Of a stretch of DNA of 64,000 nucleotides, positions 32,660-40,677 are shown piece by piece (within the stretch, counting starts at the first letter, position 1; every line of letters starts with the position of its first letter). The stretch spans positions 838,001 to 902,000 of the forward strand of contig CP018227.1 of assembly GCA_016865035.1 (NCBI GenBank). Reading direction: 5' to 3'. The DNA is from Kordiimonadales bacterium IMCC3096. GTDB taxonomy: Bacteria; Pseudomonadota; Alphaproteobacteria; Minwuiales; Minwuiaceae. The notes under the pieces are model-generated. The model ran no database searches. It saw only the letters and a list, made by a program, of their open reading frames with translations, and was not told the origin of the DNA. A program made the translations under genes and the position numbers.

Positions 32660-33148
32660 TCAGATGCGTTTGTGGATGTGATAGCGCCCGGGACGCACGC
32701 CCTGCGGCAGGTCCTGTGGCGCGAAAGCCGGATCCGGCAGCGGCTGGTCGCTGACCAGGATCGTTCCCGCCTGCGACAGGGGCAACAGCAGCGGTGCGAT
32801 CATCGCGGCCATGGCGACACTGGCGGCCTTGTCCCCGGTTCCGGTGTCGGCATGGATCAGTGCCACCGAGCGGCCGATCATCCGCGCGGCCCGCGGCAGG
32901 GTTTCGAGGAAATCGCCCAGCAGCAGGTCCTCATCGGCGGGAATGCAGTCCGGATGGGCGTTCACCTGACGCTCGAACACCAGAATCCGGCGGTCAGGCA
33001 GCAGGCTGCGCAGATGGTCGAAGGTGCGTCCGTTGCCCAGGCCAAGCTCCAGCACATCGCCGGAAAGACCGTCGATGGCGGATGCGGCCCAGTCGAGACA
33101 CGCGCGCTGCGCGCAAAGGCGTTCGATGACGGAATCGAGGCGACTCAT
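32660..33148 (-). CDS. Small SAM-dependent methyltransferase (Methyltransf_17-like)
   Basis: A 162-residue protein resembling PF12692 methyltransferases. The SAM-binding glycine-rich loop is VLELGLGNGRTFDHL (about 32-46), with an acidic ribose-binding residue in FERQVNAH, and LIHADTGTGDKA acts as the fourth-strand motif. It is shorter than most class I methyltransferases and probably lacks a separate substrate domain. The target is unknown. It sits 31 bases after the cyclic-nucleotide-binding gene in the same direction and may belong to its transcription unit. Confidence 0.82.
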   Translation of the reverse strand: MSRLDSVIERLCAQRACLDWAASAIDGLSGDVLELGLGNGRTFDHLRSLLPDRRILVFERQVNAHPDCIPADEDLLLGDFLETLPRAARMIGRSVALIHADTGTGDKAASVAMAAMIAPLLLPLSQAGTILVSDQPLPDPAFAPQDLPQGVRPGRYHIHKRI

Positions 33149-33179: not shown

Positions 33180-33650
33180 CTAGTCGACCCCCTGCAGCTT
33201 GTTCAGGTCATTGCGGGCCTGCTGCAGGTCCTGCGTCGTCCGGTCGAGGCGGAAGGCGATCTCCCGCATGATCTCGATGGTCATCTGCGGGAACTCCGAA
33301 ACCAGGCGATAGAACAGGTCCTTGGTGATCCGCAGGGTGACAAGCTCGGTCTTGGCCTTGATCGTGGCCGTTCGGGGGATGTCGCACAGGATCGCGATCT
33401 CGCCGAAGAAGCTGTTCTTGTGCAACTGCGCGACGGTCAGCGGCCCGTTCGGCAGATTCACGATCACGTCCGCATCGCCCTGCACGATGACATACATGGA
33501 ATCGCCGGGCTCCCCCTGTTCGCAGACCATCTCCCCGGCAGGGAACGTCAGCCGCTCCGAGGTAAAGGCCAGCAGCTTCAGCTTCGACTGTTCCACCTTC
33601 TGGAACATCGGGATCTGACGCAGCAGTTCGACTTCTTCATTCAGGCTCAA
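33180..33650 (-). CDS. Stand-alone cyclic-nucleotide-binding domain protein
   Basis: A 156-residue protein made of one CRP-type cNMP-binding domain (about 8-130) and a C-terminal helix (about 131-156), with no DNA-binding helix-turn-helix. The binding cassette FFGEIAILCDIPRTATI has the Gly-Glu and Arg-Thr residues that hold cAMP or cGMP. The only reasonable start is TTG at 33650, preceded by GGGGAG eight bases upstream, giving MSLNEEVELLRQIPMF. It follows the unusual ABC transporter (14-base gap) and is probably co-expressed with it. It may sense cyclic nucleotide for the transporter; that link is inference from position. Confidence 0.88.
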   Translation of the reverse strand: MSLNEEVELLRQIPMFQKVEQSKLKLLAFTSERLTFPAGEMVCEQGEPGDSMYVIVQGDADVIVNLPNGPLTVAQLHKNSFFGEIAILCDIPRTATIKAKTELVTLRITKDLFYRLVSEFPQMTIEIMREIAFRLDRTTQDLQQARNDLNKLQGVD

Positions 33651-33663
33651 GGTCGTATCTCCC

Positions 33664-36390
33664 CTAGGCGGCTTCGGCTGCGATAAGCTGGGAAAGCGCG
33701 GTGCCTTCCTTGCTGAGTTCCTCGAAGCTGCCACTCTCCACAATGCGTCCGCCCTTCATGACCAGCACATGATCGAAGCGTTCCGCCATCGCCGGGCGAT
33801 GCACACCCCAGATGATGGAACGACCCTCGAAGTCGGTCAGAAGGCCATCGAGAATCCGTGCCTGGCTGCTGGTATCCAGCGATGCCGTGGCCTCGGTCAG
33901 GATCAGGACATCCGGACGTTTCACCACTGCACGGGCAAGGGCCAGTTTCTGGCGCTGGGCACCGGTCAGGCGCGAACCGCCGATACCGACCTCGAACTCC
34001 AGACCAACCTCCGACACCGTCTCGATGATGCCCAGTTCCGCCATGACCTCCCGCATCAGGGAACCGACACGGTCCTGCGCCTGCGCCTGACCGTAGGCGA
34101 TCTTGCCGAACAGGATGTTGTCCTGAATGTTGGCCGCGGCGTTGTAGCGGTCCGGATCGAAGAAGGCGACCGAGCCGGACAGGTCGTCAGGCAGGTTCTC
34201 GGCAAAGGCCTTGCGCGCCTCCAGCACCTTCATCTTCACCGCGTCGTCGATGATACCGAGACGGTGCCTTGCCTGTACCAGCTTGAACGGCAGCGACATC
34301 AGCTTCGCGCGCTCATGCGGCTTCAGCCCATCCAGCTGGTCCTTGGTATATTGCGCCAGCAGACCCTGCAGCTCCGGCAGGTCGTCCGACGAGACAAAGC
34401 TGAACTGCTGGAACAGTTCGTGGTCCGGAGGCAGGTCGGAGAACAGTTCGACCATGGTAGCGGCGGCCTGATAGCCCATGCTGACCATCTGATCCGTCAT
34501 GCCGACCTTCTCCAGCACCTCCAGGATGTAGGGGTGGTCCGCCAGATGGTCGAGATCGAAGGTATCGCCGACCGGCGTGCCGAACAGCAGGTTCTCGGCC
34601 AGGGACGCATTGGAATTGTACGCCGCCGGGTCGAACCGTTCGATCAGGACGGCCAGGGACGGGTCCGTCAGCCGCTCGTCGAGCGCCTTGCGCACCTTCA
34701 GCACACCCTCGGCGATATCGCTCCGCTTCTCCGGATCGATCCGCCCGCGCAGGCCGAACTGATAGACATCCTCGTCCAGTCCGACGACCTTCAGCGCCTC
34801 GATACCCGCGCGGCGCAGGCCGACATTGTCCTCGACCCCGGCGGCACCATAGTCCACCCAGTCTGCGGCGAGGTCGTAATCCAGATTGCCTGAAGCCTGC
34901 GCCTCGGTGACGTAGCTGTCGCGCTCCTTCTTCCTGTCGCCCTCGTAGGTCGCTTCCTTCAGCGGCCGATGCTTCAGGCCGTAGAAAAGGTTGTCCCCGA
35001 GCGTCAGGTTGAAGATGAACGGCGCATTGTCGACGAAGGAAATCCGCCGTCCCGTGACCGCTTCCGGCAGGCCCTGCAGCAGGTGCTCGCCATAGTTGAC
35101 CGTGCCACGGTCCGGGTCGATCAGCCGGGCCATCACCTCGGCCAGCTCATCACGCCCGGATCCGCCGCCGCCCACCAGGGCGACCCGCTTGTCCAGGCCA
35201 AGCGTGAAACTGACCGAGTCGAGAATGCTGTTGTTCTGGTCGTCGGTCAGGGTGACGCCGCTGGCCTTGATCTCGCCTTCGAAGCGGACCGGGCTTTCCG
35301 GCTCGCTCATCAGACGCTCTTCCTCGAACAGTCCGGCCGGGGCGAACTGCTCCACCACCTGCTCGTACTTGATGCGGGCGTCGGCCTGACGCTGGTAGTA
35401 GCCCAGCAGTTCCTTCCAGGGCGCGCCGATTTCCTTGTGCGCACTGATGGCGGCGAACAGGGTACCCAGGTCAAGCTCGCCCTTGATCACCAGATAGCCG
35501 CCGATGGAATAGAACATCACCGGACCGAGCTGCTGGATGAAGTTGTTCACGAACTTGATGATGAACTTCCAGATGTAGATCTGCAGGCGGATGTAATAGA
35601 TGCCGTTCAGCCGCTCGGAGAATGTCGCCAGCTCCAGGTTGGAGGCGTCATGGGCATGGATTTCGCCGATGCCCGTGACCGTCTCACCGATCTTCTCCGA
35701 CAGTTTCCGGACGCGCTTGACGCGTTCCTTGCCCAGCAGGTTCACACGCTTCTGCAGTTTCGGGATGATGTAGAACTGCAGCGGGTAGAGCGCGACGGCG
35801 GCCAGCGCCAGCTTCCAGTCCGCGATCAGCATGTAGCCGAGCGACATCAGCATGATGCCGCCCTGCATCACCGGCAGGGAGAAACATTCGCCGACGAAAC
35901 CGCCCAGCGGCTCCACCTCGCCGGTGATCATGGAGATCACCTCACCCTGGCTGGTCTTCTTGAACGTCGGCTTGGGGAACCGCAGGATGCGCTGGAACAG
36001 GGCATAGCGCAGGCGCCGCAGCATGCGTTCCGCCGTGACACCGCGATAGACGTTCAGCGCGTACTTGATGCCCTGCAGCAGCAGGATGTTCAGCAGGAAC
36101 AGACCCACGAGGACAAAGAGGAAAATGACCTGATCGAACTCGGGCCCGATGTTGAAGACGGCCTCAGGAAAGTCGATCGTTGTCTTGACCGATTTCTCGA
36201 TGGTCGAGCCATCAGCCTGGGTCACCATTTCGGGAACCTTGCGGAAGCCCTGAATACCCTCGTTCACGATCTTCTCGACCAGCGTGTAGCCGAGCATCGT
36301 GAACGGCATGTTCACCACCGCAAGCAGCACCAGGACGATCTGCTGGCGATAGCTGTATTTCAGGATGAAACTGAATACGTTCCGTTCCAA
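33664..36390 (-). CDS. Atypical ABC exporter with degenerate NBD and large insertion
   Basis: A 908-residue half-transporter-type protein. Residues 1-345 form an exporter transmembrane domain; the NBD begins near 368. Walker A reads VGGGGSGRD (406-414): the invariant Lys is Arg413 and the Ser/Thr is Asp414. The Q-loop Gln is missing (FVDNAPF, 452-458). The signature is LTGAQ (808-812), and in Walker B (LILTEATASLD) the Asp is Thr832, while Glu833 and His864 remain. Walker A and signature are about 395 residues apart instead of about 105, so roughly 290 residues are inserted. DNLFYG (466-471), ENLLFG (599-604) and DNILFG (757-762) look like three copies of one module. The start is TTG at 36390 after GAGGGGGAAGC. 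ATP hydrolysis seems unlikely by the usual mechanism. Confidence 0.88.
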   Translation of the reverse strand: MERNVFSFILKYSYRQQIVLVLLAVVNMPFTMLGYTLVEKIVNEGIQGFRKVPEMVTQADGSTIEKSVKTTIDFPEAVFNIGPEFDQVIFLFVLVGLFLLNILLLQGIKYALNVYRGVTAERMLRRLRYALFQRILRFPKPTFKKTSQGEVISMITGEVEPLGGFVGECFSLPVMQGGIMLMSLGYMLIADWKLALAAVALYPLQFYIIPKLQKRVNLLGKERVKRVRKLSEKIGETVTGIGEIHAHDASNLELATFSERLNGIYYIRLQIYIWKFIIKFVNNFIQQLGPVMFYSIGGYLVIKGELDLGTLFAAISAHKEIGAPWKELLGYYQRQADARIKYEQVVEQFAPAGLFEEERLMSEPESPVRFEGEIKASGVTLTDDQNNSILDSVSFTLGLDKRVALVGGGGSGRDELAEVMARLIDPDRGTVNYGEHLLQGLPEAVTGRRISFVDNAPFIFNLTLGDNLFYGLKHRPLKEATYEGDRKKERDSYVTEAQASGNLDYDLAADWVDYGAAGVEDNVGLRRAGIEALKVVGLDEDVYQFGLRGRIDPEKRSDIAEGVLKVRKALDERLTDPSLAVLIERFDPAAYNSNASLAENLLFGTPVGDTFDLDHLADHPYILEVLEKVGMTDQMVSMGYQAAATMVELFSDLPPDHELFQQFSFVSSDDLPELQGLLAQYTKDQLDGLKPHERAKLMSLPFKLVQARHRLGIIDDAVKMKVLEARKAFAENLPDDLSGSVAFFDPDRYNAAANIQDNILFGKIAYGQAQAQDRVGSLMREVMAELGIIETVSEVGLEFEVGIGGSRLTGAQRQKLALARAVVKRPDVLILTEATASLDTSSQARILDGLLTDFEGRSIIWGVHRPAMAERFDHVLVMKGGRIVESGSFEELSKEGTALSQLIAAEAA

Positions 36391-36596
36391 GCCGCTTCCC
36401 CCTCACGCATGGCGCATGCTGGTTGCCACCCCCGGCCCAGCACCGCGCAGACGTTCTCTGTCACGAACCTTAGTGGACCGCGCCCCCTGCGACAATCGCG
36501 ATGCTTGGCCACCGACAAGCCGTTTGCCGCCACGTGACGATTCTGCCATAGTCCCGCGCAACACCAGCCGGAACAATCGGCGCAATGGGGAATAGA

Positions 36597-37814
36597 ATGG
36601 CGAACGGAAAAGGTTCGCGTGTCCTGATCTACAGCCACGATACTTTCGGGTTGGGACACCTGCGGCGTTGCCGGGCAATTGCCCATTCGCTGGTCGAGAA
36701 CAACAAGAACCTGTCGGTGCTGATACTGTCGGGTTCGCCGATCATCGGCAGCTTCGACTTTCGCGCCCGCGTGGATTTCGTGCGCGTCCCCGGTGTCATC
36801 AAGCTGCGCAACGGCGAATATACCTCGCTGAACCTGCATCTGGATATCGAGGACATGCTGGCGCTGCGCGCGTCGATCATCCAGCACACGGCGGAAAGCT
36901 TCGATCCCGACATCTTCATCGTCGACAAGGAACCGCTGGGCCTGCGGGGCGAGGTCATGCCGACGCTGGAGATGCTGAAGAAGCGCGGCACCCGGCTGGT
37001 ACTCGGCCTGCGCGACGTCATGGACGAACCGAAGCTGCTGGTACCCGAATGGCAGCGCAAGAACGTGCTGCCGGCGCTGGAAGACCTGTACGACGACATC
37101 TGGGTCTATGGCCTGCCGCAGATCTGCAACCCGCTGGAAGGACTGGAAATTCCGGAGAGCGTGTCGCGCAAGATGGTCTACACCGGTTATCTGCCCCGGC
37201 GGCCGAGCACCGCGCCTTCCGTTTCCCTGCCGGAGATCACCAACCGCCCGTTCCTGCTCGTCACGACCGGTGGTGGCGGTGACGGCGATGCGCTGATCGA
37301 CTGGGTCCTGCGCGCCTATGAGACCGATCCGCTGCTGCCCTATCCGGCGCTGCTGGCGCTTGGTCCCTTCATGGCCCCGGAACTGCAGGCCGGGTTCCAT
37401 GAACGTGCCGCGAAGCTGGACAGGGTGGAGGCCATTACCTTCGACCCGCATTTCGAGAACCTGATGGCCAGCGCGGCAGGGGTGGTCGCCATGGGCGGCT
37501 ACAACACCTTCTGCGAGGTGCTCTCGCTGGACAAGCGCGCCATCATCGTGCCGCGCAGCGTGCCCCGGATGGAACAGACGATCCGCGCGGAACGCGCTGC
37601 GGCGCTCGGCCTGGTGCAGATGACACCGCTGGACGATGACCGCGACCCGGAGGTCATGGCCGCCGCGATCCGTGCCCTGCCGCGCCAGAAGAAGCCTTCC
37701 GACATCGTCGTCCCCGGCCTGCTGGAGGGCCTGACCAACGTCAACCGCCTGGCCGCGCCATGGCTGGACCGGAAGGGGAAGGTCAGGACCAGTGCCGTGC
37801 GGAAGATGTTCTGA
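36597..37814 (+). CDS. Glycosyltransferase with GT28-like C-terminal domain (COG4671-like)
   Basis: A 405-residue two-domain GT-B-type glycosyltransferase. The N-terminal domain has HDTFGLGHLRRCRAIAH, which matches predicted glycosyl transferases of the COG4671 type. The C-terminal donor-binding domain has LLVTTGGGGDG, and AAGVVAMGGYNTFCEVLSL with IIVPR, comparable to the MurG donor loop. Donor and acceptor sugars are unknown. ATG 36597 has GGGGA seven bases upstream; one four codons upstream is also possible. It is divergent (206-base gap) from the ABC transporter and heads the glycan-like cluster on the plus strand. Confidence 0.88.
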   Translation: MANGKGSRVLIYSHDTFGLGHLRRCRAIAHSLVENNKNLSVLILSGSPIIGSFDFRARVDFVRVPGVIKLRNGEYTSLNLHLDIEDMLALRASIIQHTAESFDPDIFIVDKEPLGLRGEVMPTLEMLKKRGTRLVLGLRDVMDEPKLLVPEWQRKNVLPALEDLYDDIWVYGLPQICNPLEGLEIPESVSRKMVYTGYLPRRPSTAPSVSLPEITNRPFLLVTTGGGGDGDALIDWVLRAYETDPLLPYPALLALGPFMAPELQAGFHERAAKLDRVEAITFDPHFENLMASAAGVVAMGGYNTFCEVLSLDKRAIIVPRSVPRMEQTIRAERAAALGLVQMTPLDDDRDPEVMAAAIRALPRQKKPSDIVVPGLLEGLTNVNRLAAPWLDRKGKVRTSAVRKMF

Positions 37815-38671: not shown

Positions 38672-39454
38672 ATGGTCAACATGAAACTGAAGAAGCTGGC
38701 CCTGCGCTACGGCTACGACTTCACGTTCCGCAAGCTGCCGCAGCACGGGTTGCGCAACCGGCAGATGAAGCTGCCGCGGGACATGGAGCCGATCTTCAGC
38801 GAGATCTTCGGCAAGGTGGGCGACCACACCCTGACCACACCGGACTGCGTTCACGCGCTCTATGCCGCCACGAAACATGTGGTGGAGCAGGACATTCCCG
38901 GCGATTTCGTCGAATGCGGCGTCTGGCAGGGCGGAAGTGCCATGACCATGGCGCTGACCCTGCTGCACATGGGCGTCACCGACCGCAACATCTACCTCTA
39001 TGACACCTACACCGGCATGGTGAAACCGGAGGAGATCGACATCCGCCAGCGCGATGGATCGGACACGATCAGCCGCTGGGAGATGCAGCAGCGCGATGAC
39101 CACAACGAATGGTGCTACGCGCCCATCGATCAGGTGAAGGCCAATCTGGCCAGCACCGGCTATCCGGAGGACCGGCTGATCTACGTGAAGGGCGTGGTGG
39201 AGGAAACCATTCCGGAGGTTGCGCCGGACCGGATCGCCCTGCTGCGGCTGGACACCGACTGGTACCGGTCCACCCGCCACGAACTCGATCATCTCTATCC
39301 GCGGCTCACCACCGGCGGCTTCCTGATCATCGACGACTATGGGGCCTATGCCGGCGCGCGTCAGGCCACGGACGAATATTTCGCCGAGAAGGGCAATCGC
39401 CCCTACCTGAACCGCATCGACACGGCCGCACGGATTGCGGTCAAGCCGGCTTGA
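38672..39454 (+). CDS. TylF/MycF-family O-methyltransferase
   Basis: A 260-residue methyltransferase of the TylF family, Mg-dependent enzymes that methylate sugar hydroxyls of macrolides and glycans. It contains FVECGVWQGGSAMTMALTLL (SAM loop), YLYDTYTGMV, LLRLDTDWYRSTRHELDHL (metal and catalytic Asp) and LIIDDYGAYAGARQA. These blocks are the TylF hallmark. ATG 38672 is chosen; ATG 38681 is an alternative and the true start of the frame upstream is spurious. The stop overlaps the TTG of the next glycosyltransferase (TTGA). Sugar O-methylation in the product of this cluster is a reasonable inference. Confidence 0.92.
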   Translation: MVNMKLKKLALRYGYDFTFRKLPQHGLRNRQMKLPRDMEPIFSEIFGKVGDHTLTTPDCVHALYAATKHVVEQDIPGDFVECGVWQGGSAMTMALTLLHMGVTDRNIYLYDTYTGMVKPEEIDIRQRDGSDTISRWEMQQRDDHNEWCYAPIDQVKANLASTGYPEDRLIYVKGVVEETIPEVAPDRIALLRLDTDWYRSTRHELDHLYPRLTTGGFLIIDDYGAYAGARQATDEYFAEKGNRPYLNRIDTAARIAVKPA

Positions 39455-40677
39455 GCACTGCCCCTCCCGCGACCGGGCGGGTGGCCTTCGTCCTGAAGGG
39501 CTATCCCCGGCTTTCGGAGACCTTCATCGCCCAGGAGATCCTGGCGCTGGAACAGCGCGGCCTGGCCATCGACATCTGGTCCCTGCGCCATCCGACCGAT
39601 ACGACAAGCCATCCCGTGCATCAGGACATCGCGGCCCCGGTCAGCTATCTGCCCGAATATCTGCGCGATGAGCCTGCACGGGTCCGCCAGGCGTGGCGCA
39701 CATGTTCCGCCTGGCCGACCTGGCAGGCTGCCACTGCCCTGTTCGGGCGGGACTACCGGCGCGATCCGACCGTGAACCGTGTGCGCCGCTTCGGGCAGGC
39801 CGTGGTGCTGGCCGCCGAACTGCCGCCGTCGGTCACCCGCCTGCACGCCCATTTCCTGCACACTCCGGCCTCCACCACCCGCTATGCCGCGCTGCTGAAG
39901 GGGCTGCCGTGGAGTGTCTCCGCGCATGCCAAGGACATCTGGACCAGCCCGGCGTGGGAGAAGCGGGAGAAACTTGCCGACTGCGCCTTCGCCGTGACCT
40001 GCACCGCAGCGAATGCCGATCATCTGGCCGAACTGGCACCGGAAGGGCGGGTCAGTCTGGTCTATCACGGGCTTGACCTGACGCGTTTTCCCCCTGCCCC
40101 CGCTACGCGTCCCGCGAACCCTGTGCCGGTCATCCTGTCCGTCGGGCGGGCGGTCACGAAGAAGGGCTATCCGGTGCTGCTGAAGGCGCTGGCGGAGATC
40201 GGTCTGCCTTGGCGGTTCATCCATATCGGGGGCGGGGAGCAACTCGCCGAACTGAAACAGCAGGCGGAAGCGCTTGGCATTGCCGACCGGATCGACTGGC
40301 GCGGCCCGCAACCGCAGCAGGCGGTGCTGGAGGCCTGCCGACAGGCGGACCTGTTCGTGCTGGCCAGCCGGATCGCCGATGATGGTGACCGGGACGGCCT
40401 GCCCAATGTGCTGATGGAGGCGCAGAGCCAGGGGCTGCCGGTGGTCGCCACCGCTGTCTCGGCCATCCCGGAGCTGGTGCGGGACGGGGAGACCGGTCTG
40501 CTGGTCCCCCCTGACGATCCGCAGGCGCTGGCCGCTGCGCTGTCACGGATGCTGCGTGATCCGGCGGCACGAAAGGCCATGGGTCAGGCAGGTGAGGCCA
40601 GGGTCCGGTCAGCCTTTGATCTGGACCGATGCATTGACCGGCTGGCCGCGAAATTCGGATTGGAGGCACGGGAATGA
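39451..40677 (+). CDS. Family 4-type glycosyltransferase (GT-B)
   Basis: A 408-residue retaining-type GT4 glycosyltransferase. It has RVAFVLKGYPRLSETFIAQEIL at the N-terminus, a catalytic-domain SVGRAVTKKGYPVLLKAL segment, GDRDGLPNVLMEAQSQGLPVVAT (the EX7E-type region near 325-345) and GLLVPPDD. The TTG start at 39451 overlaps the TylF stop codon (TTGA), indicating translational coupling. The open frame continues upstream inside tylF but in a wrong context. It is followed by the epimerase-like gene with a 4-base overlap. Acceptor and donor are unknown. Confidence 0.9.
   Translation: MSTAPPATGRVAFVLKGYPRLSETFIAQEILALEQRGLAIDIWSLRHPTDTTSHPVHQDIAAPVSYLPEYLRDEPARVRQAWRTCSAWPTWQAATALFGRDYRRDPTVNRVRRFGQAVVLAAELPPSVTRLHAHFLHTPASTTRYAALLKGLPWSVSAHAKDIWTSPAWEKREKLADCAFAVTCTAANADHLAELAPEGRVSLVYHGLDLTRFPPAPATRPANPVPVILSVGRAVTKKGYPVLLKALAEIGLPWRFIHIGGGEQLAELKQQAEALGIADRIDWRGPQPQQAVLEACRQADLFVLASRIADDGDRDGLPNVLMEAQSQGLPVVATAVSAIPELVRDGETGLLVPPDDPQALAAALSRMLRDPAARKAMGQAGEARVRSAFDLDRCIDRLAAKFGLEARE

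Follow-up and report, generated by a model that had tools for sequence, protein, structure and literature searches.

The window, a stretch of 64,000 nucleotides from a single-contig alphaproteobacterial genome of 4.29 Mb whose nearest named relatives are Minwuia, carries on its minus strand a gene for a pseudo-ABC exporter. A gene for a cyclic-nucleotide-binding (cNMP) protein lies directly downstream, and a glycosyltransferase cluster is transcribed divergently. The features of the locus are as follows.

33664-36390, minus strand: pseudo-ABC exporter gene, 908 aa, TTG start, stop at 33664-33666 (ORF translation)
35347-36378, minus strand: transmembrane domain (TMD), residues ~5-348 (Pfam 79-316, AF2 helices, alignment to the TM287/288, TmrAB and MsbA chains)
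35149-35172, minus strand: degenerate Walker A GGGGSGRD, residues 407-414 (translation and family composition)
34666-35064, minus strand: repeat unit 1, residues 443-575, with Q-loop hairpin 450-477, helix 523-548 and tail helix 557-575 (profile self-comparison and model)
34186-34665, minus strand: repeat unit 2, residues 576-735, with hairpin 579-606, helix 618-641, an extra helical part 642-715 and tail helix 716-734 (profile self-comparison, insert model, weak structural alignment)
33997-34185, minus strand: repeat unit 3, residues 736-798, with hairpin 737-764 and helix 775-798, running into the signature (profile self-comparison)
33955-33969, minus strand: signature LTGAQ, residues 808-812 (translation); degenerate family-wide
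33892-33909, minus strand: Walker B region, residues 828-833, with Thr832 in place of Asp and Glu833 retained (translation and family composition)
33180-33743, minus strand: cNMP protein, directly downstream, a 187-aa ORF conserved from about residue 36, so that the true start is probably inside (Pfam cNMP_binding, PF00027, 1e-20)
32660-33148, minus strand: SAM methyltransferase (Methyltransf_17), possible third gene of the operon
36585-37814, plus strand: glycosyltransferase with a GT28-type C-terminal domain, divergent
39109-40677, plus strand: GT4 glycosyltransferase, part of the divergent cluster, whose true start is probably further in

Fold of the protein and its repeated insert

Pfam locates ABC_membrane at residues 79-316 (9e-28) and splits ABC_tran into two parts, residues 390-540 and a C-terminal stretch (7e-15). 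The whole chain is modelled by AF2 with a pLDDT of 85.5, the low-confidence stretches of the TMD being residues 185-201 and 313-322, and whole exporter chains align with the model at a Z score of ~29, with TM287/288, IrtAB and TmrAB among the best structural matches. Pfam, AF2 and the structural matches all give a TMD followed by an ABC nucleotide-binding domain (NBD) fold in a single chain, which bears out the earlier note in that the exporter fold has been kept. The NBD core superposes on all 239 of the 239 residues of the ComA NBD (Z 30.1, 1.7 Å); the NBD fold is therefore complete apart from the insert, which loops out of it. The best NCBIfam match is TIGR02203 (MsbA), at 214.5 bits against a cut-off of 602 bits, which places the protein outside the MsbA equivalogs, and the score lies below the cut-off for every NCBIfam model listed.

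Walker A and the signature are 395 residues apart (413 to 808), and the protein carries about 290 residues, including the repeats, that MsbA-like exporters do not have. A profile-profile self-comparison of 325 window pairs spanning the whole protein reveals that every top-scoring pair joins two of the three modules, the best pair with any other region reaching only 2e-3. Units 2 and 3 are the most alike (557-606 versus 716-764, P=1e-17; 579-640 versus 737-797, P=4e-16), and significant pairs also join units 1 and 3 (439-471 versus 731-762, P=6e-7) and units 1 and 2 (525-548 versus 618-641, P=2e-5). Comparison of whole-segment profiles yields P=2e-13 for unit 2 versus 3, 3e-6 for 1 versus 2 and 1.5e-5 for 1 versus 3. 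The repeated stretch consists of the Q-loop hairpin and the helix that follows it in each unit, and the tail helix is common to units 1 and 2. The three modules that the earlier note had recognised from the motifs DNLFYG, ENLLFG and DNILFG are thus real and larger than these motifs.

Folded alone with AlphaFold, the insert reaches a pLDDT of 92.8, and each of the hairpins is modelled with a similar succession of strand, helix and strand, so that the disordered linker lacking repeats that the earlier note had held up as the counter-case does not describe it. Residues W511, R567, F650 and R726 of the enlarged helical region are invariant. In a VIA search with the insert, the best Z score is only 4.4 and ABC transporters fill the top five rows; in four of these, residues 589-731 lie compactly on the part between the Q-loop and the signature in the NBDs of MRP1, ABCB1, TM287/288 and ABCB19, at Z scores of 3.4-4.4, which are weak, so that the alignment counts as supporting evidence and not as proof. 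From the self-comparison and these models, we infer a tandem triplication of the segment of the helical (ABC-alpha) subdomain, including the Q-loop hairpin.

Two other origins were considered for parts of this region. Pfam families are found in the insert in none of 68 members, a search of the PDB for sequence relatives returned a sole match at chance level (E 0.89), and Foldseek returned no match at E≤0.001; on these empty searches, a known foreign domain is rejected. Profile comparison lends no support (P 0.07 and 0.014) to the tail helix being a copy of the signature helix and Walker B strand.

Erosion of the ATP site and constraint on the membrane part

The minus-strand translation confirms the substitutions reported in the earlier note, R413 and D414 in Walker A and T832 in Walker B, as well as the presence of E833 and H864 and the wide Walker A-signature spacing. 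Alignment to solved exporters places N455 at the position of the Q-loop Gln, which has been lost as the earlier note had it. The protein therefore lacks the full set of ATP-site residues of an ABC exporter (Walker A Lys and Ser/Thr, Walker B Asp, Glu and His), and LTGAQ and N455 stand in place of the LSGGQ signature and the Q-loop Gln.

These positions were counted in 89 aligned homologues and in a control of 19 canonical exporters from the same class (Alphaproteobacteria). None of the 89 retains all five of K, S/T, D, E and H: 66 keep 0-2 of them, 22 keep three and one keeps four, which is the nearest approach to an intact site among the homologues, and 28 members have none. Position 413 is K in 38, R in 37 and A in 11 members; position 414 is E in 38, D in 27 and S/T in only 12; and the Walker B Asp is replaced by N in 61 and by S in 10, with D in 11. 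The catalytic Glu (833) is E in 40/89 and the H-loop His is H in 29/89, its position varying freely, and Gln occupies position 455 in 18/89. All 19 control exporters have K, S/T, the Q-loop Q, the signature Ser and both Gly, D, E, the D-loop D and H, and 17 of them have the signature Gln.

The earlier note had called the signature intact. LTGAQ may be so read in this one protein, but only 13 members of the family keep the second Gly (A in 29, V in 11; lost in 76/89) and the Ser is S in 54 and lost in 35. The signature Gln Q812 (80/89) and the D-loop Asp D839 (82/89) are still common. The degenerate ATP site, which includes the signature, is a trait of the whole family, in line with the earlier picture of an exporter with degenerate ATP machinery. 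ATP hydrolysis has probably been lost. Complete loss of ATP binding, which the earlier note also proposed, is unproven: the NBDs may still bind some nucleotide or form a dimer that has a role, because the P-loop glycines and K/R413 remain in most members and Q812 and D839 are retained so widely.

Mean pairwise identities, calculated after thinning to ≤70% identity, are 57% in the TMD, 40% in the NBD core and 43% in the repeats of the family, whereas those of the control exporters are 28% in the TMD and 62% in the NBD. Among the Minwuia orthologues, dN/dS is 0.01-0.17 in the TMD and 0.08-0.28 in the repeats, and among the four closest Minwuia relatives it is 0.01-0.04 in the TMD and ~0.1 in the repeats. 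The highest value, 0.49, was obtained for the N-terminal part of the NBD when the two most distant Minwuia relatives were compared, every other region comparison being ≤0.28. Purifying selection thus acts on the membrane part and not on the ATPase site, the inverse of ordinary exporters, and invariant residues are scattered over the entire TMD. A pseudogene is ruled out by dN/dS below 0.5 everywhere together with the occurrence of the insert profile in 98 of 289 alphaproteobacterial genomes (87 of the 235 good ones, about one third).

Relatives and the cyclic-nucleotide neighbour

Every sampled genome of the same genus has a homologue, and so do many other Alphaproteobacteria, among them Sneathiella, Azospirillum, Inquilinus, Rhizobium, Shinella and Aureimonas. 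Plasmid or chromid copies are present in Rhizobium, Sinorhizobium meliloti (pSymB), Ruegeria and others (262 records, mostly annotated 'ABC transporter ATP-binding protein'). In a sample of 299 genomes of the phylum, of unspecified composition by class, all 21 matches fall within Alphaproteobacteria, and the family is likely restricted to this class. Three clear members bear record titles from elsewhere, Mycobacterium sp. KBS0706 (L065), Anaerolineae (L040) and Gammaproteobacteria (L070); these records are probably misnamed or mis-binned. The S. meliloti 1021 copy on pSymB (L150, 17598-20283) has a frame change near residue 139, and the record of strain 2011 matches in one piece; the change may be either a sequencing error or a real difference. 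No curated family reaches its cut-off and no description of the family was found in the open-licence literature, where absence is not proof, in agreement with the earlier note, which knew of no described family of this architecture.

In a tree of the TMD, the monophyly of the family against canonical exporters is solid, and the inner order is mostly without resolution. Paralogues that consist of the TMD only, with no NBD, are found in several Minwuia genomes and in one other genome; they form long branches of uncertain placement in the tree. Their existence is support, though not proof, for a TMD able to function when no ATPase domain is attached to it. Two of these NBD-less proteins (L143, 6540-7781; L144, 5787-6986) adjoin copper-resistance genes, with a multicopper oxidase and a cupredoxin at both loci, CopB in L144 and PCuAC in L143. 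The TMD-only relative in the genome of the window (L002, G000:C1:2601197-2601907) is broken by an in-frame TAG, and that of a congener (L103) is open over 320 residues.

The cNMP gene is the immediate same-strand neighbour of the pseudo-ABC gene, or fused to it, in 76 of the 83 loci with enough flank; a neighbouring cNMP gene is missing from the other seven, some of which are truncated. The cNMP protein has the phosphate-binding cassette (G-E ... R-[ST]-A), and in 78 sequences the cassette GEIAIL..PRTA is near-invariant (G114 100%, E115 99%, R124 100%, A126 99%). Pfam finds no DNA-binding domain in it. Fusion proteins, in which the pseudo-ABC chain continues at its C-terminus into the cNMP domain, number at least seven and come from four genomes (L022, L130, L131, L134, L135, L136 and L140); they argue for a physical complex. 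One genome (G119) encodes three fused paralogues (L131, L135, L140), whose ATP sites are among the most eroded. An adenylate/guanylate cyclase gene lies within the Rhizobium and Sinorhizobium clusters, and the genome of the window has 16 class III cyclase matches elsewhere. A cyclic nucleotide would probably be the controlling signal.

The methyltransferase gene is found downstream in 35 of 77 loci, the GT28-type glycosyltransferase gene is divergent in 55 of 69, and the GT4 gene is kept in many. The glycosyltransferases suggest that the locus is tied to an envelope glycan or glycolipid process, although one Ruegeria member has an unrelated neighbourhood. On plasmid pA of R. etli CIAT 652 (L153), the neighbours are annotated redA (membrane-anchored protein) and redB (glycosyltransferase), which hints at a phenotype study; no paper on redA/redB was found in the open-licence literature. 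PADLOC matches are to the generic ATPase and cNMP domains of Mads and Pycsar models, and a defence system is rejected, as the locus is broadly conserved beside glycan genes.

Proposed role and relation to known systems

The best explanation, in which belief and doubt are about evenly balanced, is that the family consists of exporter-derived membrane proteins that are independent of ATPase activity, regulated by a cyclic nucleotide and linked to glycans. As part of this joint explanation, and held with the same balance, the family would be an undescribed one derived from exporters. The ancestor would be a type IV (MsbA-like) ABC exporter whose ATPase engine was dismantled while the TMD and the overall NBD fold were retained, and the tripled Q-loop hairpin and helical subdomain would form an enlarged intracellular helical platform. 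The cNMP protein, adjacent or fused, would dock on the NBD or platform; binding of cAMP or cGMP could then be relayed through the platform, and the TMD would shift between states. Such a shift may gate or regulate, with no cycle of ATP hydrolysis, the passage of a substrate related to envelope glycans, this relation being a guess from the neighbouring genes. A bolder form of the proposal, which we regard as doubtful, is a cAMP/cGMP-gated channel or facilitator of ABC fold in which a relay through the triplicated subdomain replaces ATP hydrolysis, widespread in bacteria and evolved independently of CFTR.

It is unlikely, though it deserves serious weight, that the protein works as TM287 or BmrC do, as one degenerate half of an ABC heterodimer that lends its signature to the working ATP site of a canonical half whose gene lies elsewhere. 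Q812 and the D-loop Asp are conserved while the Walker residues decay, as in a degenerate protomer, and the best structural matches include TM287/288, IrtAB and TmrAB. Across the loci examined, however, no gene for a canonical exporter half recurs as a neighbour (a single Sinorhizobium record has two exporters ~12 kb from the pseudo-ABC locus). The loss of the second Gly and, in many members, of the Ser of the signature, an NBD that is less conserved than the TMD, the reverse of ordinary exporters, and the existence of NBD-less relatives also speak against it. The earlier note had left a choice between a switch to another regulator or energy source and pairing with a canonical subunit: another regulator gains from the adjacent or fused cNMP protein, and the pairing is weakly disfavoured because no exporter partner lies alongside and the signature that would serve it is itself degenerate.

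An ABC-derived ligand-gated channel or facilitator parallel to CFTR, with a passive path through the TMD that would be opened by the cyclic nucleotide, is a rather more remote prospect. The TMD as the most constrained region, the cNMP partner or fusion and the want of a fully canonical ATP site in any member are consistent with it, but the AF2 model is of low confidence in two stretches of this very domain (185-201 and 313-322). Improbable as well is a non-transporting, SUR-like regulator or scaffold that would serve as the membrane anchor of the cNMP sensor and of the glycan enzymes; the enlarged platform with its invariant W511, R567, F650 and R726 and the linkage to glycosyltransferases and methyltransferases would suit such a role, but the invariant residues throughout the TMD suggest a membrane function, and the enzymes are linked by neighbourhood only. 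An ATPase still working through an altered Mg/ATP site, with an acid at 414 and Asn in Walker B, is very improbable, because all five catalytic residues are gone from 28/89 members and the H-loop residue changes freely, despite a D or E at 414 in 65/89, which is not random, and a Glu833 kept in 40/89.

A degenerate NBD in one of the two halves is a familiar feature of paired exporters. If ATPase-independent, cyclic-nucleotide-regulated work by the family is true, the TMD of an ABC exporter does useful work without an ATPase cycle, with the hydrolytic residues and the signature both eroded, and many alphaproteobacterial class III cyclases gain a concrete candidate membrane effector. The family would then be a natural system for asking what roles NBDs have beyond hydrolysis, and it is carried by about one third of the sampled Alphaproteobacteria, model rhizobia among them. 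As its members are annotated 'ABC transporter ATP-binding protein', the transporter counts and energetics of these genomes are probably wrong for them.

The MsbA-like type IV exporters (TIGR02203) are alike in TMD fold, NBD fold and domain order, whereas here Walker A, Walker B, Q-loop and signature are eroded. TM287/288, TmrAB, TAP and BmrCD have both the fold and degenerate catalytic residues in common with the pseudo-ABC family; in these heterodimers the degeneracy is confined to one of the two sites and the other half is canonical, whereas here no partner is seen at the loci and the signature is degenerate too. The NHLP bacteriocin systems (TIGR03896) likewise combine an ABC exporter with a cNMP-binding companion, and the downstream cNMP protein matches TIGR03896 at 2e-9 over the cNMP domain, far under the family cut-off; the companion here is shorter, and the exporters of NHLP systems carry active NBDs. 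CFTR and SUR are eukaryotic full-length proteins with at least one ATP-competent site and are not close relatives of the pseudo-ABC family, which has neither a CFTR-type R domain nor a SUR-type Kir partner. CFTR is under cAMP/PKA control, and the two proteins provide a precedent for the exporter fold in signal-controlled work other than pumping.
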